This document shows positions 7,893-18,730 of a stretch of 61,294 bases of DNA, one piece after another. The stretch spans positions 1-61,294 of the forward strand of contig WGCA01000017.1 of the NCBI GenBank assembly GCA_015494065.1, read 5' to 3'. This DNA is from Thermodesulfobacteriaceae bacterium (GTDB lineage: Bacteria; Desulfobacterota; Thermodesulfobacteria; Thermodesulfobacteriales; Thermodesulfatatoraceae). Numbering within the stretch: the stretch's first letter is position 1; the number at the start of each line of letters is the position of its first letter. The position numbers were made by a program, and so were the translations under genes. Under the pieces are notes generated by a model. The model made no database searches. It saw only the letters and a list, made by a program, of their open reading frames with translations, and was not told the origin of the DNA.

Positions 7893-7999
7893 GGTATACC
7901 TTCTTCGCTAGGTTGATTATTCAATTTTCAGACCCTGGCCAAAAGTCTTAGAATTTGGTAGTAGCGGTTTACCATGAAAAAACTTTTCCGGCAACGCAA

Positions 8000-8734
8000 A
8001 TGCGTTTTGACGTAATCACCATTTTTCCTGAATATTTTGAAAGCCCTCTCCGCGTGGGGGCCCTGAAAAAGGCCCAGGAACGGGGGCTTATCGAGATCAA
8101 CCTGATTAATCTCCGGGATTTTGCCCTAGACAAACACCGTATGGTAGACGACCGCCCCTTTGGCGGCGGCGAGGGTATGGTCTTTAAGCCCGAGCCCCTT
8201 TACCGGGCTATTTCGTCGTTGCGTCAGCTAGGGACCTCCTACGTGGTCTACCTTTCCCCTCAAGGTCGACTCCTCAACCAGGAAATAGTTAAAGAACTTT
8301 ATGAAAAAGGCCACTTAGTCCTCATCTGCGGCCGCTACGAGGGTATAGACGAACGGATCAGGAAGCATTTTATTGACGATGAGATCTCGATTGGTGATTA
8401 CGTGGTTTTTGGAGGGGAGGTGGCGGCCCTGGTGGTTATTGAGGCGGTGGCCCGTTTGGTCCCCGGCGTGGTGGGCAAACGGGATTCCGTGGAAAAGGAA
8501 TCTTTCAGTCAGGGGTTGCTCAAGTACCCCCAGTATACCCGGCCGCGTGACTTTATGGGTTACAAGGTACCGGAAATACTCCTTTCCGGGGACCACGCGG
8601 CCATCGCCAAGTGGCGCCGAAAAAAGTCTTTGGAAGTCACCTTAAAGAGGCGGCCGGACCTGCTTAAAAAGGCCAAGTTGAGCGAAGAGGACTTAGAATT
8701 TCTACGCCAGTTGGGCTGGCAGGAAGATGAGTAA
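8000..8734 (+). CDS. trmD: tRNA (guanine-37-N1)-methyltransferase TrmD
   Basis: A knotted SPOUT methyltransferase making m1G37 in tRNAs to prevent frameshifting. At 244 residues from the ATG at 8000 it has family length. Motifs: RPFGGGEGM (52-60), ICGRYEGIDERI (109-120) and SIGDYVVFGGE (130-140), which form the knot and SAM pocket. An upstream in-frame TTG at 7955 would add 15 residues with no similarity, so 8000 is preferred, although its Shine-Dalgarno sequence is weak. It starts an operon with the SPOUT methyltransferase, rplS, rnhB and yraN. Confidence 0.96.
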   Translation: MRFDVITIFPEYFESPLRVGALKKAQERGLIEINLINLRDFALDKHRMVDDRPFGGGEGMVFKPEPLYRAISSLRQLGTSYVVYLSPQGRLLNQEIVKELYEKGHLVLICGRYEGIDERIRKHFIDDEISIGDYVVFGGEVAALVVIEAVARLVPGVVGKRDSVEKESFSQGLLKYPQYTRPRDFMGYKVPEILLSGDHAAIAKWRRKKSLEVTLKRRPDLLKKAKLSEEDLEFLRQLGWQEDE

Positions 8735-9350
8735 ATTTTCCTTTTACGTAGCCCTGATCCACTACCCTGTCCTCAATAAAGAAGGGCGCATTATCGCCTC
8801 CTCCACAACAAATCTTGACCTTCACGATATCGCCAGGGTCTGTCGGACTTACGGCGTCAAGCGTTATTACGTGGTGCAACCCTTGAGAGCGCAACGAAAA
8901 CTCGTCACCGAACTTCTTGAATATTGGCAAAAAGGCGCAGGCAGGGTATATAATCCGGATCGTCAGGAAGCACTTAAAATTTTAAGGGTGGTTCCGGCCT
9001 TGACAGTAGCCCTTAGAGAGATTGAAGAAGAAACCACCAGCCCGGTTTTGATAGGCACAGATGCGCGGCCTGAGTACGCCACCCTTACCTATAGCGAGGC
9101 CCGGAAGAGACTGGAAAGCGGCGGCAGTTATCTGCTTCTCCTGGGTACCGCTTGGGGGTTGGCCCCTAAGCTTTTAGCGAATTGTGATTTTGTCCTGGAA
9201 CCTATTAAAGGATGTGCCAGAGACGGTTATAATCATCTTTCGGTACGCTCAGCCGCGGCTATTATTTTAGACCGGCTGCTAGGAGAACCATGGTGGAAAA
9301 GCTTGAAGGAGGAAGAAGATGTTTCCCGTGATCAGAGAGATAGAAAATGA
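8727..9350 (+). CDS. SPOUT-class RNA methyltransferase (Methyltrn_RNA_4 family)
   Basis: A 207-residue protein starting [26 protein letters not shown], characteristic of the small SAM-dependent RNA methyltransferases encoded next to trmD in Thermotoga, Aquifex and deltaproteobacteria. C-terminal segments [15 protein letters not shown] and [26 protein letters not shown] are the SPOUT SAM-binding and trefoil-knot region. The RNA target is not known from sequence. Start and stop overlaps with trmD (8 bases) and rplS (32 bases) imply tight co-expression. Confidence 0.85.
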
Positions 9351-9666
9351 ATATTTACGTAAAGATCTGCCAGATTTCCGCCCGGGAGACACCGTAAAGG
9401 TTTATTTCCGGATTGTCGAAGGAGAAGATAAGGAGAGGACACAGGTTTTCCAGGGAGTAGTTATCAGGAAGCGCGGTTCGGGCACCGGGGCCACTTTTAC
9501 CGTGCGCAAGATCTCTTTCGGTATTGGAGTGGAGCGGACCTTTCCGCTCCATTCTCCAAGACTTGAAAAGATCGAAGTGGTCAAGAGGGGGAAAGTACGG
9601 CGAGCCAGGCTTTACTATCTCCGTGGCCGGACTGGTAAAGCGGCCCGTATAAAGGAGCGGCTCTAG
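9319..9666 (+). CDS. rplS: 50S ribosomal protein L19
   Basis: A 115-residue L19, at the 30S-50S interface. Typical features are [20 protein letters not shown] near the N-terminus, [12 protein letters not shown] and the basic C-terminus [23 protein letters not shown] strong GGAGGAAG Shine-Dalgarno sequence precedes the ATG. The trmD-rplS linkage is conserved across bacteria. Confidence 0.97.
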
Positions 9667-9668
9667 CC

Positions 9669-10337
9669 TTGTTTAAGGTAAACGAACGCTGGGTCAAAGA
9701 AAAACAGTTTTTGCGGGCTTACCGCTACGTTGCCGGGGTGGATGAAGTAGGTCGGGGGGCACTGGCCGGGCCGGTGGTGGCGGCGGCGGTGATTCTCCCG
9801 GCCGATTTCGATCACCCTGAGTTGGCGGATTCTAAATGTCTTAGCGCCGAAAAAAGGGAGGAACTCTTTCAGATTATCACCCAGGAAGCCGTCGCCTGGG
9901 CGGTAGCCCGTATTGAAAACGAAATCATAGACGAGATCGGTATTTTAAAGGCCAGTTTGCGTGCCATGGCCCAGGCCTTAGAAGCCCTGGAACCCAAGCC
10001 CCAGTTGGCCTTGATTGACGGCCGTTTCACCACCCCCTGGGCAGGCTTGCAAAAGGCCATCATTGACGGAGACGCCCTCTGCCGCTCCATCGCCGCCGCC
10101 TCCATCGTAGCCAAGGTGACCAGAGACTATATTATGACTGAGGCGGCCACGGTCTTTCCCCAATACGCCTTCGATAAACATAAAGGTTACGCCACCAAAC
10201 AACACCTCGAAGCCCTGAAAACCTATGGCCCTTGTCCCATCCATCGTCGCTCTTTTAGGCCGGTTTCAGAATACGAAAGACCCGAAGAAATTAGGCCGCC
10301 TAGCCGAAGACCTTTCCGCCTGGTATTTTCGCCTTAA
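9669..10337 (+). CDS. rnhB: Ribonuclease HII
   Basis: Cleaves RNA in RNA:DNA hybrids, including single misincorporated ribonucleotides. GVDEVGRGALAGPVV (23-37) carries D25 and E26; ALIDGRF carries D117; DGDALCRSIAAASIVAKVTRD supplies the remaining acidic site (D135). FDKHKGYATKQH and HRRSFRPV are C-terminal family motifs. The start is TTG, with AAGGAG upstream. The last ~45 codons overlap yraN in another frame, so the tail after HRRSFRPV is unlike other RNases HII. A second RNase H activity is encoded at 33036-34157. Confidence 0.95.
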   Translation: MFKVNERWVKEKQFLRAYRYVAGVDEVGRGALAGPVVAAAVILPADFDHPELADSKCLSAEKREELFQIITQEAVAWAVARIENEIIDEIGILKASLRAMAQALEALEPKPQLALIDGRFTTPWAGLQKAIIDGDALCRSIAAASIVAKVTRDYIMTEAATVFPQYAFDKHKGYATKQHLEALKTYGPCPIHRRSFRPVSEYERPEEIRPPSRRPFRLVFSP

Positions 10338-10641
10338 GGGTTACCGCCTGGTGGCCCGCAACTGGCGTACCCGCTGGGGCGAAATCGACCTTGTGGTTGG
10401 CAAAGGCGACACCCTGGTCTTTGTAGAGGTAAAAGCCAGAAAGAATCTCAGTAAAGGAAGCCCCGAAGAGGCCCTCACCCCTCATAAAAAGAAAAAACTT
10501 ATCAAACTGGCCCAGGCCTTTCTGGCCACCCAAAAGACCGAGGCCTCCCATTTCCGTTTTGATCTCGTGGCGGTTGATTTTTCGCGCACCAAGCCTCAAA
10601 TTAGACATTACCAGGGGATAATCGAAGATGACGGATCGTAA
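10225..10641 (+). CDS. YraN family protein (UPF0102, predicted endonuclease fold)
   Basis: A 138-residue protein of the UPF0102 family, which has the restriction-endonuclease-like core RWGEIDLVV....LVFVEVKAR (the D-ExK pattern of PD-(D/E)XK nucleases). LGRLAEDLSAWYF at about 23-35 is the conserved N-terminal helix. It usually follows rnhB, as here. The ATG at 10225 lies inside rnhB (113-base overlap); the true start could be slightly downstream, but no better start codon precedes the conserved region. Confidence 0.88.
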   Translation: MALVPSIVALLGRFQNTKDPKKLGRLAEDLSAWYFRLKGYRLVARNWRTRWGEIDLVVGKGDTLVFVEVKARKNLSKGSPEEALTPHKKKKLIKLAQAFLATQKTEASHFRFDLVAVDFSRTKPQIRHYQGIIEDDGS

Positions 10642-12478
10642 AGAAAGACAACAGGCCGCTTTAAAGAGCAGGAGGCGCCCCCTCTGGCGCGAAAGACGCC
10701 TGCCCCATTTTCGAGAACTCATCGAGGCCCCTGCCGAAGAAGCCGAGAAAAAGATCGCCGCCCTGCCTCTTAGGGACCAAGTAGAGCTCATCTTACAAAC
10801 CCCCTGGGAACTCAGGGAGCGTCTCATCGTCCTCTCCCCTCAAGCCGAACACTTGGTAAAGGCCCTCCCCCCGCAGGAATTCTTCTGGACTTTAAAGGCC
10901 GTAAGCCCGGAAGAGGCCGTCACTCTGCTTGCTATGGCCAGTGCCACCCAGCTCCAGTTTTTGTTTGACCTGGACTGCTGGCGCAAAGACCGCTTTGTCC
11001 TGGAAAGGGCCCTGGCCTGGCTTACGCTGCTTTTCGAAGCCACGGAAGACACGGTGGCACGCTGGCTAAAAGGGGTTGACTTTGACTTTCTGGTAACCCT
11101 GATGAAGCGCCTGATAGAGGTCTACAAACGGCCCGACGGGGTAGACCTTACCGAAGCCCGGGACTGGCTGCCCCCTTACACCCTGGATGACACCTATTTT
11201 ATCAACTTCCGGCTGGACAAATTTGAACCGCTGACCCGGAGAATAATCGAAATCCTCATAGAGATAGATCCGGCCCGTTACCGGGACCTCATGGAAGCGG
11301 TAATATGGGAGCTTCCTGCCGAAGTGGAAGAGCTTGCCTACCGCTGGCGCCGGGCCAGGTTAGCGGATTGGGGTATTCCTGATTACTACGAAGCCCTCGA
11401 CGTCTACGCCCCTTTGTCTCCAGACCGGATGCGCCAAATAGAACCCTCCTACCTTCCGCCGACCCCAGACGAAGAGACTCCACCGCCGGCCTTTTTGCCC
11501 GCCATTCACCTTGAGGGGGTTGAAATACTGGCGGAGGCGCTAGCCCGGATCACGGACTGGCGCCAGGTGGACCGGCTCAAAAGGGAACTGGCCTGGTTGG
11601 CCAACAAAGTCCTTATGGTAGACGTCGGCACCATTGACGACGTGGAAGAGGCCCGCCGGGTCTTTGACAAGGTAGCAGGCTACCTCAACATAGGGCTCGA
11701 ATACCTTGCCAGAGGCCAGGTTGAGGCGGCCAAACGTCTGCTGGAAACCTACTTTTTGGAAGACCTCTTCCGGGTGGCCCAGGGCCTAATTGTGGACCTC
11801 AGGCGTTACGCTCGGGAAATAACTACCGCCAAAGGTCTGGACGCCCGCCTTTTCCGGCACCTGGACGAACCTTACGCCTCTTATCTTAAGGGAGTGATGG
11901 CCAAAGAAGCCAACCGGATTGTGCTCTTTGTCCCGGAAAAGATAGGGACCGCCGAAGAGTTTCGCCCTTTCCGGCGCCTTGAGGAGATTGACCGGGTAAG
12001 GCGCATCCTTTCTGAAATCGCCTACCTGGCCCCTTTGATCCAGAAAGCCTTCGGGACCCCTCCCCTCTGGCTGGCTGAAATCGCCCTCAAAAAGACCAAC
12101 CTCTTGGAACCCGGGGATCTTAAGTGGAGTACCCTGGTGCTTACCGCTCTGGCCAATTGGCTCACGCGTCAGGAGTTTCGTTTCGAGGCCCTGCCGGTGG
12201 AACTTTGGCCTGAATTTTTGCGCAAGATCTTTACCAAGCTCCCTGGTCAGGAACGCAACGTGGTGCGGGAATCAGTACGCCGGGAGCTCCTGGAAAATTT
12301 TAAAGCACTCGCCAGTCAGCTGGGCCCACCTGAAGAGGACCATTTGCAGAGTTTCCTTAACTTTTGTCTATTCAAAGTGGAAGAGGAATTTGCCTTTGCC
12401 GAACCGGAAAACCCCCCTGACCCCCGTTACGTCCAGGCCCTATTGATCGAACTGACACCCCATGGAAAAAGTGCCTGA
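10628..12478 (+). CDS. DUF6178 family protein, function unknown
   Basis: A 616-residue, probably cytoplasmic, largely helical protein without signal peptide or membrane segment. The segment SPEEAVTLLAMASATQLQFLFDLDCWRKDRF (about residues 90-122) is what I recognise from the DUF6178 family of deltaproteobacteria and Thermodesulfobacteria. No catalytic motif is visible. It overlaps yraN by 14 bases and the Clp1-like kinase by 17, so all three are likely translated together, which suggests a link to nucleic-acid metabolism (inference). Confidence 0.75.
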   Translation: MTDRKERQQAALKSRRRPLWRERRLPHFRELIEAPAEEAEKKIAALPLRDQVELILQTPWELRERLIVLSPQAEHLVKALPPQEFFWTLKAVSPEEAVTLLAMASATQLQFLFDLDCWRKDRFVLERALAWLTLLFEATEDTVARWLKGVDFDFLVTLMKRLIEVYKRPDGVDLTEARDWLPPYTLDDTYFINFRLDKFEPLTRRIIEILIEIDPARYRDLMEAVIWELPAEVEELAYRWRRARLADWGIPDYYEALDVYAPLSPDRMRQIEPSYLPPTPDEETPPPAFLPAIHLEGVEILAEALARITDWRQVDRLKRELAWLANKVLMVDVGTIDDVEEARRVFDKVAGYLNIGLEYLARGQVEAAKRLLETYFLEDLFRVAQGLIVDLRRYAREITTAKGLDARLFRHLDEPYASYLKGVMAKEANRIVLFVPEKIGTAEEFRPFRRLEEIDRVRRILSEIAYLAPLIQKAFGTPPLWLAEIALKKTNLLEPGDLKWSTLVLTALANWLTRQEFRFEALPVELWPEFLRKIFTKLPGQERNVVRESVRRELLENFKALASQLGPPEEDHLQSFLNFCLFKVEEEFAFAEPENPPDPRYVQALLIELTPHGKSA

Positions 12479-13532
12479 TTCCTGGCAAAAGGCCCAGGAG
12501 GTCATCTGGCAAACCCGGCCGAAAAGGGTCTTGATCCTCGGCGGTGTAGATACGGGAAAGAGCAGTTTTTGTTTCTTTGTGGCGGAAAGACTCCTGGCCC
12601 GTGGGGTCCCGGTAGCCCTGCTTGATGCCGACATCGGTCAAAAGGACGTGGGCCCTCCCACCACCATCGGCCTGAAGGTACTTGAACCTGCAGACCTAAG
12701 CCGGCCCAGGCCCTTGCCCGCCGAAGAACTTTATTTCGTGGGCTCTACCACGCCGGTGGGACACCTGCTGCCTTTGGTAGTGGGGACCAAGCTGCTGGCG
12801 GAAAAAAGCCGGGCCCCTATCACCCTCATCAACACTACCGGCCTTATTCGCGGCCCCGGGGTGGCGCTCAAAACCTTTCAGATAGAGAGCCTGGCCCCTG
12901 ATCTCATCGTGGCCTTCGAACGGGAAAAGGAACTCTCCCCCATTTTGGACGGGTTCAGACACCTCCCGGTCTTACGGCTCCCAGTCCCTCTGGAAGTCCA
13001 GCGCAAGGACTTCCGGGAACGCCAAAAAAGGCGGGAGGCGGCTTACCGCCATTATTTTGAGGGCGGGACCCTCCTTGAATTTCCCCTGGGAACCTTAATC
13101 ATTCAACGCCCAAGGAAACTGGTCCCCCACCTGCTATGTGGCGTGAGTAACGGGAAAAGGCACCTGGGCTTGGCCCTCCTGGAAAAGGTCACCTTGGAGG
13201 AGCTCTTCCTCTTCACCCCGGTGGCCCGGGAAGAGATAAAAATCCTTATCTGCGGCAGTATGCTGGTACGTTTGCCTGGCGTTGAACTGAAAAAACTCAC
13301 TGCTGGTAGACCACCTTCCCCATCTCGGAAGCGTCATACCCTCCCAGCTCCTCCACCCGGGACCGGAAGGAAGGGTCTTCCAAAACCGAAGCCAGCACGG
13401 CCCAGAAAGGGCTGGCGAAGAAATCACGCCGGAGTAGCAAGTCGTAGCACTCCTCAAAAAGGGGAACAAAATCCAGCCCCAACAGACGGGCCGCCGCCCG
13501 GATCCCGAGCCCGGCGTCTGCCCGACCGGTAG
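12462..13532 (+). CDS. Clp1/Grc3-like P-loop protein (predicted polynucleotide 5'-kinase)
   Basis: A 356-residue P-loop protein: GGVDTGKSS (27-35) is the Walker A and ALLDADIGQKDVGPPTTIGL (52-71) the DxDxGQ signature of the Clp1/Grc3 RNA-kinase group. INTTGLIRG is another family segment. The product would phosphorylate RNA or DNA 5'-OH ends (family knowledge; specificity unproven). The conserved domain ends near residue 278. The last ~78 codons lie antisense to the 3' end of the MoeA-PBP gene and give a Pro/Arg-rich tail, as if the original stop codon was lost. It is coupled to DUF6178 by a 17-base overlap. Confidence 0.8.
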   Translation: MEKVPDSWQKAQEVIWQTRPKRVLILGGVDTGKSSFCFFVAERLLARGVPVALLDADIGQKDVGPPTTIGLKVLEPADLSRPRPLPAEELYFVGSTTPVGHLLPLVVGTKLLAEKSRAPITLINTTGLIRGPGVALKTFQIESLAPDLIVAFEREKELSPILDGFRHLPVLRLPVPLEVQRKDFRERQKRREAAYRHYFEGGTLLEFPLGTLIIQRPRKLVPHLLCGVSNGKRHLGLALLEKVTLEELFLFTPVAREEIKILICGSMLVRLPGVELKKLTAGRPPSPSRKRHTLPAPPPGTGRKGLPKPKPARPRKGWRRNHAGVASRSTPQKGEQNPAPTDGPPPGSRARRLPDR

Positions 13533-15222
13533 CCACGGCAACCGCTACTCCGAGATGGGTGGTCTCTTCGTCCTCATAGCCTAGCAGCGCAGAAGGATCA
13601 AGACCCAACTTTTTAAGATGGTAATCCAAAAGGACCCTCGTGCCCGCTCCCATCTGGCGGTTGATGAAACGCACCTTTTGGCGGACCAAATCCTCGATAC
13701 TTTTAAGCCCCTTGGGGTTACCTTTGGGTACGATAAGGCCCTGCTGACGGCGGACGAAGTGTACCAACACCACCGGGGTGTCCGGGAGGTATTTCTTAAT
13801 GTAAGGCACGTTGTAGACCCCGGCCTCCGGGTCGAAGAGATGGGTCCCAGCGGCGTGGGCCAACCCGTCACGCACCGCCAGGATTCCGCTGAGACTGCCT
13901 ACGTGGGCCAGGGAGAGCTCGTATTCAGGGTCCTTCTTTTTGACAAATTCAGCCAACACGTCGAGGGCCAAATCGTGGCTCCCTACGATCAGGGCCGTCT
14001 TGGCCAGGTCTTTTTCCGGGCGCAAAAGTTCAAGATAGAGTTCCTCTCCCGCCGGGATCCCCTCCCGATCTTCGGGGATCTCGCAGAGGGCGTCGGCCCG
14101 GGTAAGGGTGGTGATGGCCCCGGCCCCTCGCTTGAGGTTTAAAAAGACCCGGCGCCCTGCGACCTCCCCGACCTTGACCCGCACAAATTCCTTGATCCCC
14201 AGGCGAGAAGGGATTTTACGCCCGGCCCGGGCCAAAATCTTGGGGCGGGCCGGTATCCGTACCCCGAGCATGGCGGAGAAGGCCGGACGCATGAGCTTTT
14301 CAAAGGCCAGGATGGCGGAGACCGGATAACCGGGCACCCCCAGGACCGGACACCCTTGCACTAGGCCGAAGACCGCAGGTTTGCCGGGCATGATACTTAC
14401 CCCGTGAACCAAAAGGGTGCCCTGCTCTTCCACCAGCTGGGCGGTGTAGTCCTTGGCCCCGGCAGAGGAGCCAGCAAGCACCGCTATCAAGTGAAAATCC
14501 TTCACCACGGATAAGATCCGCTCCTTTAGGAGGGCCGGTTTGTCCGGCACAATGGGGAAGACCCGGGCCACGCCACCCCATTCTTCTACCAGGGCGGCCA
14601 GCATGGCGGAGTTAAATTCTACGGTTTTCCCCTGGGCCAGGCGCTCCGGGGTGGCCTCCTCCGGGGGAATTAGTTCGTCTCCGGTAGGAATAATGGCTAC
14701 CCGGGGCCGTTCCTTGACTTTCACCCTCAGGTGTCCCGTGGCCAAAAGGACGCCCAAGTCCCAGGGGGCCAGGAGGTGGGAGGGAGGAAAGAGGAGTTCT
14801 CCTTCCACCACGTCCTCCCCGATTTTGCGCACGTGTTGCCAAGGATAAGCCGGGGCCATGATTTCTACTTCTTCTGTGAATAGCTGGTGTACCTCTTCGA
14901 TCATGATGACCGCGTTGGTTCCGGGAGGCAGAGGCTCCCCGGTATTCACCCAGAAGGCCTCCTGGCCAATCTTCAAGGATAGAGGTCGGTCTTCCCGGGC
15001 GGCAAAGGTCTTTTCCGCCACCACCGCTATGCCGTCCATGGCGGCGGCGTTAAAGGCCGGGACCGAACGTTTAGCGTAAATGGCCTCGGCGGTAACCCGA
15101 CCCCGGGCATCCCTTACGTCCACCTCCTCAGGGGTCAGGGCCTGCGCCCAGGGACAGGCCTTGAGGATGATGGCAACGGCTTCTTCAAGGGCTTTCTTGC
15201 GCAAATAGATACGCCTTTTCAT
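13297..15222 (-). CDS. MoeA-type molybdopterin protein fused to a PBP-like domain
   Basis: A 641-residue fusion. Residues 1-405 are MoeA/gephyrin-like: AAMDGIAV (60-67), PTGDELI (179-185), GSSAGAKDYT (251-260) and LGVPGYPVSA (294-303), for molybdate insertion into molybdopterin. Residues ~411-641 are a periplasmic-binding-like domain (IVGSHDLALDVLAEFV, FINRQMGAGTRVLLDYHL, GRADAGLGIRAAA) without a signal peptide, so cytoplasmic. Such MoeA-PBP fusions are common in sulfate reducers and may serve molybdenum or tungsten cofactor sensing or insertion. AAGGAG precedes the ATG. It converges with and overlaps the Clp1-like gene by 236 bases. Confidence 0.92.
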   Translation of the reverse strand: MKRRIYLRKKALEEAVAIILKACPWAQALTPEEVDVRDARGRVTAEAIYAKRSVPAFNAAAMDGIAVVAEKTFAAREDRPLSLKIGQEAFWVNTGEPLPPGTNAVIMIEEVHQLFTEEVEIMAPAYPWQHVRKIGEDVVEGELLFPPSHLLAPWDLGVLLATGHLRVKVKERPRVAIIPTGDELIPPEEATPERLAQGKTVEFNSAMLAALVEEWGGVARVFPIVPDKPALLKERILSVVKDFHLIAVLAGSSAGAKDYTAQLVEEQGTLLVHGVSIMPGKPAVFGLVQGCPVLGVPGYPVSAILAFEKLMRPAFSAMLGVRIPARPKILARAGRKIPSRLGIKEFVRVKVGEVAGRRVFLNLKRGAGAITTLTRADALCEIPEDREGIPAGEELYLELLRPEKDLAKTALIVGSHDLALDVLAEFVKKKDPEYELSLAHVGSLSGILAVRDGLAHAAGTHLFDPEAGVYNVPYIKKYLPDTPVVLVHFVRRQQGLIVPKGNPKGLKSIEDLVRQKVRFINRQMGAGTRVLLDYHLKKLGLDPSALLGYEDEETTHLGVAVAVATGRADAGLGIRAAARLLGLDFVPLFEECYDLLLRRDFFASPFWAVLASVLEDPSFRSRVEELGGYDASEMGKVVYQQ

Positions 15223-16927: not shown

Positions 16928-17507
16928 AATCGCCGTTACCGGCCCGCCAGCGGCGGGAAAAAGCACCGTTTTGGCCCTTTTGCAAGACTTCGGCGTCCCG
17001 ACCTTTTCCGCAGATGCGGTGGTCAAGGCGTTGTCCAGGCCCTGCCGGGAAGGCTACCACCTCTTTTGCCAGCGGTTCGGCGAAGGTTTCCTCACCGCCT
17101 CAGGAGAGCTTGACCGCCGTCTCATCCTGGAAGCCATGCTGGCTGACCCCCAATTCAAAAAAACCCTTGAAGAAATCTTCCATCCTTTAGTCAAAAAAGA
17201 ATTGTTCAGGTGGTTTGAAAAGGAAAAGGGCGAGGAAGTCCTGGCGGCTGAGATCCCCCTGCTTTACCAGGCAGGTTGGGCGGATTTCTTCGATCAGGTA
17301 ATCTGGGTTGACTGTCCGGAGGAGCTTTTGCTGGCCAGGCTTAAGAAGCGGCTGGGGCGCAAAGATTTGGCCCGCAAACTCCTTGACCAATATCAGGCAG
17401 GGCTTCCCCCAAAAAGGAAGGCCTTTGAACTGGCCGGCTATCTCCCCCGGGAGACACTGGCCGAAAAAATAACAGCCATCTTAAACCAGCTGAAGAGGCA
17501 AAAATGA
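16899..17507 (+). CDS. coaE: Dephospho-CoA kinase
   Basis: Final step of coenzyme A synthesis, phosphorylating the ribose 3'-OH of dephospho-CoA. The P-loop is GPPAAGKST (15-23), then FSADAVVKAL and FHPLVKKELF, with EIPLLYQAGWADFFDQVIWVDCP typical of CoaE. From the ATG at 16899 the protein has 202 residues; a longer in-frame reading from 16827 has an unrelated leader and lies deeper in the previous gene. AGAGG lies at good spacing. Overlaps with rluD and moeA indicate one operon. Confidence 0.95.
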   Translation: MPSEKKRPVKIAVTGPPAAGKSTVLALLQDFGVPTFSADAVVKALSRPCREGYHLFCQRFGEGFLTASGELDRRLILEAMLADPQFKKTLEEIFHPLVKKELFRWFEKEKGEEVLAAEIPLLYQAGWADFFDQVIWVDCPEELLLARLKKRLGRKDLARKLLDQYQAGLPPKRKAFELAGYLPRETLAEKITAILNQLKRQK

Positions 17508-18730
17508 TCGGTTTTCAAAAGGCTTTAGACCTGGTCAGGACCACTCTCAAACCTTTAACCCCGGTGGAGGTCCCTGTAACCGAGGCCGTGGGCCTTATCC
17601 TGGCCGAAGACCTTTACGCCCAGACCGACGTCCCTAAAGAAGCGGTCTCTCTCAAAGATGGTTACGCGGTACGCAGCCGGGACGTGGAAGGAGCAAGTCC
17701 GCAAAACCCAAAGTATTTGACCTTAATGGGGGAAATCTTAGCGGGGGAAGAAAAAGACCTGGCCTTAAAGCCCGGAAGTTGCGTCCGGGTAACCGCTGGC
17801 GCCTTACTTCCCAAGGGCACGGAGGCGGTTTTAGCGGAAGAGTTTGCCGCGCCCGAAGGTAAAAGCATCAAGGCCACCGCCGACGCCCCGCCGGGGAAAA
17901 ACATTTTGCCCCGGGGAGCTGATATTTCAAAGGGAAGTCTTCTTTTGGCGCGGGGGCAGAAGCTCTTTCCGCCAGAGGTGGGCTTGATGGCCGCCGGCGG
18001 CTGGGCCAGGATAAAAGTACATCCCAGGCCCAGGGTATTTCTCCTGGCTACGGGAAGCGAGGTGGTGGCCCCTGGCCATCCTTTAAGGGCCGGGCAGATT
18101 TACGCCAGCAACCTGGTTACCCTTGCGGGTTGGTGCCGTTATTTCGACTTCCCCTGGACCAGCCGGGTCGTTGAGGATGAACCGGCTGCCCTCCAAAAGG
18201 CCTTGGGCGATTTCCTGGCCGGGCCCTGGGAAGTGCTTCTTACCAGTGGTGGGGCCTGGCGGGGACCCAAAGATCTGGTGGTTAAAGGTCTGGACGAGGC
18301 AGGCTGGAAAAAAATATTTCATCGGGTACGCATAGGCCCGGGCAAAGCCGTGGCTTTTGGTCTGTTAAAAGAAAAGGTGGTTTTTTGTCTGCCCGGAGGA
18401 CCCCCTTCCAACCAAATGGCCTTTCTCAATTTGGCCCTGCCGGGACTTTTCATCCTGGCAGGAGAAAAGGACGTACCCTTTCCGGAAATTCCCGTCCGTC
18501 TGACCGAGACAGTGGAAGGGCAAAGGGACTGGACCCAATTTTTCCTGGGGCGTCTTAAAAGAAAAGGAGAAAAGATCGACTTCACTCCTCTCAAACCCCG
18601 AAGCCGGCTTTCTTATCTGGCGTCAGGGGAGGCCTTGCTCACCCTGCCAGAAGGAAAGGAAAGGCTTGCTGCTGGTGAGGAAGTCTGTGTACGGGTCCTA
18701 AAAGAGTGGCCCCCCTGCCCTTTTACTTAA
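17504..18730 (+). CDS. Diverged MoeA-type molybdopterin molybdenumtransferase
   Basis: A 408-residue MoeA paralogue: DGYAV (52-56), LATGSEVVAPG (181-191), TSGGAWRGPKDLV (247-259), LPGGPPSN (296-303). In canonical MoeA the last two read TSGGVSxGExD and PGNPVS, so the molybdopterin/molybdate pocket is altered, although the DGYAV and TGSE sites are intact. It may handle tungstate or a modified substrate, or act with the MoeA-PBP protein 2 kb away (inference). It is the last gene of the trmH operon and overlaps the convergent HEPN gene by 8 bases. Confidence 0.88.
   Translation: MIGFQKALDLVRTTLKPLTPVEVPVTEAVGLILAEDLYAQTDVPKEAVSLKDGYAVRSRDVEGASPQNPKYLTLMGEILAGEEKDLALKPGSCVRVTAGALLPKGTEAVLAEEFAAPEGKSIKATADAPPGKNILPRGADISKGSLLLARGQKLFPPEVGLMAAGGWARIKVHPRPRVFLLATGSEVVAPGHPLRAGQIYASNLVTLAGWCRYFDFPWTSRVVEDEPAALQKALGDFLAGPWEVLLTSGGAWRGPKDLVVKGLDEAGWKKIFHRVRIGPGKAVAFGLLKEKVVFCLPGGPPSNQMAFLNLALPGLFILAGEKDVPFPEIPVRLTETVEGQRDWTQFFLGRLKRKGEKIDFTPLKPRSRLSYLASGEALLTLPEGKERLAAGEEVCVRVLKEWPPCPFT

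Follow-up and report, generated by a model that had tools for sequence, protein, structure and literature searches.

The window (the whole 61,294-nucleotide stretch of DNA analysed) contains two overlapping genes, one encoding a protein of family DUF6178 and the other a Clp1-like polynucleotide kinase, downstream of a cluster of RNA-related genes. The question raised by this locus is whether the two products are partners in RNA end processing or merely neighbours on the chromosome. The second reading is preferred here, with a probability of about 0.7: a compact bacterial 5'-hydroxyl polynucleotide kinase of the Clp1 fold and a separate DUF6178 scaffold-like protein, which are neighbours by gene placement. 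The genes concerned are:

7955-10641, plus strand: trmD, an RNA methyltransferase gene (PF09936), rplS, rnhB and yraN, upstream of the pair; Pfam assignments
10628-12478, plus strand: DUF6178 gene, 616 aa, all-helical; PF19676, E 2e-178; AlphaFold model pLDDT 89.9
12462-12478, plus strand: overlap of the DUF6178 end with the Clp1 start, 17 bases, read from the sequence
12462-13532, plus strand: Clp1-like open reading frame, 356 aa; CLP1_P (PF16575), E 1.1e-34, full domain
13297-15222, minus strand: convergent gene for MoeA fused to a periplasmic-binding-protein-like (PBP-like) domain; PF03453, PF00994, PF03454 and PF12727

The preliminary description of this DNA reported a two-gene layout with a 17-base overlap; this is confirmed from the open reading frames, and by a full CLP1_P match and a full-length DUF6178 match (PF19676 profile positions 1-561 of 561). 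The DUF6178 gene ends with TGA at 12476-12478 and the kinase gene begins with ATG at 12462. DUF6178 also shares 14 bases with yraN (UPF0102). The RNA-related genes described upstream are present as stated; TrmD, the RNA methyltransferase (PF09936), L19, RNase HII and YraN are all recognised by Pfam. A second MoeA-like gene, without the length of the PBP-like domain, is located at 17504-18730.

Assignment of the second protein to the Clp1-like kinases is upheld by sequence, motifs and predicted fold. The full CLP1_P domain scores 120.4 bits against a curated cut-off of 26.6, and a profile built from 32 relatives matches human Clp1 (E 1.3e-26), C. elegans Clp1, Nol9 and Grc3. Among named records, the nearest to the window is a Thermodesulfatator atlanticus MAG, with 94% identity in the kinase core. 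The AlphaFold model has a mean pLDDT of 85.4, with values above 90 across most of the core; it aligns with human Clp1 (8hmy_E) at Z 29.4 over 268 residues (rmsd 2.4), with Grc3/Nol9 at Z 20-25 and with other P-loop proteins at Z 10 or less. The core and its motifs are placed as follows:

12462-13295, plus strand: conserved core of the Clp1-like kinase, residues 1-278; kinase domain and small C-terminal beta domain
12540-12563, plus strand: Walker A, GGVDTGKS, residues 27-34; GxxxxGK[ST] in 51/51 sequences
12624-12641, plus strand: Walker B region, DADIGQ, residues 55-60; DxDxGQ in 51/51 sequences
12831-12845, plus strand: Clasp region, NTTGL, residues 124-128; published motif TxGW
13020-13034, plus strand: Lid arginines R187 and R191, invariant in a 32-member alignment

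The Walker B pattern [D/E]hhQ is present as DIGQ (57-60), which aligns with DVGQ of human Clp1, and both Lid arginines align with arginines of the human protein. The N-terminal domain of eukaryotic Clp1 is absent, Walker A starting at residue 27; bacterial members usually have short N-termini (PMC6777427). To call these members poorly described is reasonable but leaves out a 2019 survey, which listed them, found them in 0.9% of complete genomes and demonstrated phosphorylation of RNA 5' ends by Thermus scotoductus Clp1 (PMC6777427).

The Clasp is the exception. Its published motif is [T/S/L]xGW (PMC6777427), while the window protein has TTGL. The Clasp Trp, which is reported to be important for RNA binding, occurs in 0/48 readable sequences (of 51); its place is taken by L, F, Y, M or V. 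Since Trp is replaced by Leu, substrate binding is probably unlike that of eukaryotic Clp1, and from the sequence RNA binding may differ from that of Clp1 proteins with the Trp. Motifs and model make kinase activity likely; due to the variant Clasp, the protein is filed as a CLP1_P-domain protein and not as a proven Clp1/Grc3 RNA kinase. The absent Trp, shared by all 48 readable relatives, could instead mark a Clp1-fold P-loop protein which is not an RNA kinase and acts on some other small or macromolecular substrate. Such a protein would fit gene neighbourhoods that are mostly unrelated to RNA and database entries that labelled such proteins GTPases (PMC6777427). It is nevertheless unlikely given the retained Lid arginines and C-terminal domain, the clustering of Clp1 with archease and RtcB and its fusion to a metallo-beta-lactamase domain (both described below), and the RNA kinase activity of Thermus Clp1 (PMC6777427).

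Bacterial Clp1 genes were counted in 247 genomes of the window's phylum, requested at a completeness of at least 90%. Only full CLP1_P domains were counted and short P-loop-only matches were left out; a divergent fusion in genome G200 is included. On this basis, 38/247 genomes (15%) carry the domain. In G201 (L080:3600-6664, minus strand), Clp1, archease and RtcB genes are adjacent on one strand and form an apparent RNA repair operon; this genome does not contain DUF6178. The G200 fusion (L098:4602-6641, minus strand) joins the divergent Clp1 P-loop domain to a metallo-beta-lactamase domain (PF12706) resembling RNase Z. RtcB is found in 37/38 Clp1 genomes and in 178/209 others, a weak association (p = 0.037) uncorrected for phylogeny. 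In the window genome, RtcB and archease are located on another contig. No RNA family is enriched among the 117 proteins encoded within two genes on either side of Clp1, and most of these neighbourhoods are uninformative; no plasmid-borne Clp1 was found.

Two further features of these genomes can be recorded. Many RtcB genes (G054, G099, G226, G166 and others) carry a single in-frame TGA, suggesting a selenocysteine-containing RtcB. Four genomes from three families (G007:C4, G076:C86, G145:C310 and G246:C3) have DUF763 at a distance of about 0.3-3.2 kb from Clp1; a link between the two is rejected, as DUF763 sits elsewhere in most genomes with both.

For the preferred reading of a compact Clp1-fold kinase, a mechanism can be proposed from the motifs. 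ATP would be bound in the P-loop (K33/S34) and a metal at the DADIGQ motif; Lid residues R187 and R191 would stabilise transfer of the gamma-phosphate to the 5'-OH of RNA, or perhaps DNA. The kinase would then presumably handle 5'-OH RNA ends, and its likely role is in deciding the fate of those left by RNases and toxins, where it may compete with or support RtcB repair. A bolder and rather doubtful proposal is that the bacterial Clp1-like clade without the Clasp Trp gates RtcB/archease ligation by phosphorylating 5'-OH ends, the operon and fusion forms being traces of this function. Should kinases with this altered Clasp prove to act on RtcB substrates, a bacterial gene of patchy distribution and unexplained function would acquire a part in RNA repair.

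The Clp1-like open reading frame is longer than the conserved kinase, which stops near residue 278 (about 13295). The remainder is as follows:

13296-13532, plus strand: C-terminal tail of the Clp1 open reading frame, overprinted in antisense on the 3' end of MoeA-PBP; probably passive

The last ~78 codons are antisense to MoeA-PBP, and the two frames overlap by 236 bases, an arrangement seen again in all seven genus genomes readable there. An overprinted tail of this kind, basic and rich in Arg, Lys and Pro, could be a functional RNA-binding extension of the kinase, and in 7/7 genus genomes readable to the end its frame runs uninterrupted to the same TAG. The tail is, however, found only within the window's genus among the relatives compared, and its pLDDT is under about 60. 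When MoeA codons are shuffled synonymously, the frame stays open to the same extent in 10-69% of trials for each genome, and the overlap scores 0.482 for synonymous codon conservation, a value inside the span seen elsewhere in MoeA (0.405-0.491). A functional tail is unsupported by these two tests and is improbable. Weak selection on the tail is possible because the seven genomes are not independent and openness was judged genome by genome. The most plausible view is that an earlier stop was lost and that the tail arose passively, by read-through.

The relationship between the kinase and DUF6178 was examined by co-occurrence and by gene order. DUF6178 is present in 126/247 genomes and accompanies Clp1 in 19; it occurs in 19/38 genomes with Clp1 and in 107/209 without (Fisher p = 1), which is the background rate. 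The co-occurrence check suggested in the preliminary description therefore speaks against the proposed link.

Gene order links the two families within the window's genus only. All eight genus genomes carry both genes, and the genes are directly adjacent or overlapping in five (G000, G247, G249, G251 and G248, the contig of the last ending within Clp1). In a sixth, G250, both lie at contig ends, which is compatible with adjacency. They are separated by ~3.2 kb in G156, and are found on different contigs in G196, where DUF6178 is well within its contig. Beyond the genus, the genes are side by side in 0/16 co-occurring genomes. The order L19-rnhB-(yraN)-DUF6178 is kept in three families of the order, and the gene that follows DUF6178 differs by family (Clp1, a P-type ATPase or ribonucleotide reductase). 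The DUF6178-Clp1 linkage is consequently a genus-level event. As the pair is kept together in 5 to 6 of 8 genus genomes, in which DUF6178 is 76-98% identical to that of the window, some selection for co-expression is possible. The 17-base overlap is compatible with translational coupling, yet gives no sign of partnership. The kinase gene was probably placed behind the yraN-DUF6178 cluster in the genus ancestor, giving rise to the overlap; co-transcription of yraN, DUF6178 and the kinase is probable. Outside the order, no common theme was found among DUF6178 neighbours. The interval between the genes in G156 (L075:7009-9621) contains a MazF-like toxin gene, beside a 69-aa open reading frame, and a ParA-like gene.

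DUF6178 had been proposed as the RNA-binding partner of the kinase. Its AlphaFold model (mean pLDDT 89.9) is almost wholly helical, and no RNA-binding fold is recognised in it. The only fold match is in the N-terminal part:

10700-11086, plus strand: candidate MgtE-N/FliG-like superhelix at the DUF6178 N-terminus, residues 25-153

By VIA-align, this superhelix scores Z 10.2 against 8gpv and 8.0-8.4 against further MgtE cytosolic domains, with FliG weaker; for helical repeats, values of 8-10 are only suggestive, being below the caution level of ~13, and the comparison mostly covers residues before ~230. Weak MgtE_N sequence matches are found in 2/33 DUF6178 members (best E 0.026). A PDB sequence-profile search gave no significant match, Foldseek found nothing at E 0.001 or better, and DUF6178 is not named in the literature searched. 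An RNA-binding role is unsupported because the superhelix is the sole fold match; the protein is better pictured as a separate helical scaffold-like protein. Short forms in G052, G059, G082, G154, G175 and G126 match approximately positions 1-430 of 561 and lack the C-terminal part. Apparent DUF6178 fusions in long open frames (G192, G238, G152 and others) were discounted: on visual inspection, the additional sequence precedes the likely start and seems to be an artefact of the open frame.

A two-protein RNA-end-processing complex of DUF6178 and the kinase, translationally coupled for stoichiometry, is thus highly improbable: the 17-base overlap would suit it, as would genes that stay adjacent in 5 to 6 of 8 genus genomes, but there is no co-occurrence (19/38 against 107/209, p = 1), adjacency is absent beyond the genus, the genes lie apart in G156 and G196 within the genus, and DUF6178 has no recognised RNA-binding fold. 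The proposed partnership is unsupported because co-occurrence is at background and adjacency is confined to the genus; on these two grounds DUF6178 is rejected as kinase partner. The two proteins are probably not partners, and presumably do not interact physically. This disposes of an attractive idea about DUF6178 that lacked support, and the Clp1-archease-RtcB cluster and the Clp1-metallo-beta-lactamase fusion are better sites for testing bacterial Clp1.

Both proteins can be compared with known systems. DUF6178 residues ~25-153 may form a superhelix like the cytosolic N domain of MgtE and the middle domain of FliG (Z 8-10); unlike in MgtE, no CBS or membrane part is recognised by Pfam. The kinase fold of the window protein is shared with Grc3/Nol9 in complexes with Las1 (6of2, 8puw and 9dun; Z 20-25). 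The nuclease Las1 is the working partner of Grc3; no Las1-type nuclease is recognised beside the window Clp1 gene, and no Las1 match emerged for DUF6178. With human and C. elegans Clp1 (8hmy, 4ohv-4oi1), the window protein shares the fold of the kinase and C-terminal domains (Z 27-29), the P-loop, DxGQ and the Lid arginines; it differs from them in having no N-terminal domain and in the replacement of the Clasp Trp by Leu. It resembles Thermus scotoductus Clp1 (Ts-Clp1, E8PQM6) and other bacterial Clp1 proteins in its short form, CLP1_P domain and Walker A and B motifs (PMC6777427). For Ts-Clp1, activity is demonstrated and the Clasp is reported to be well conserved (PMC6777427), whereas the window protein is a predicted kinase with TTGL in the Clasp.
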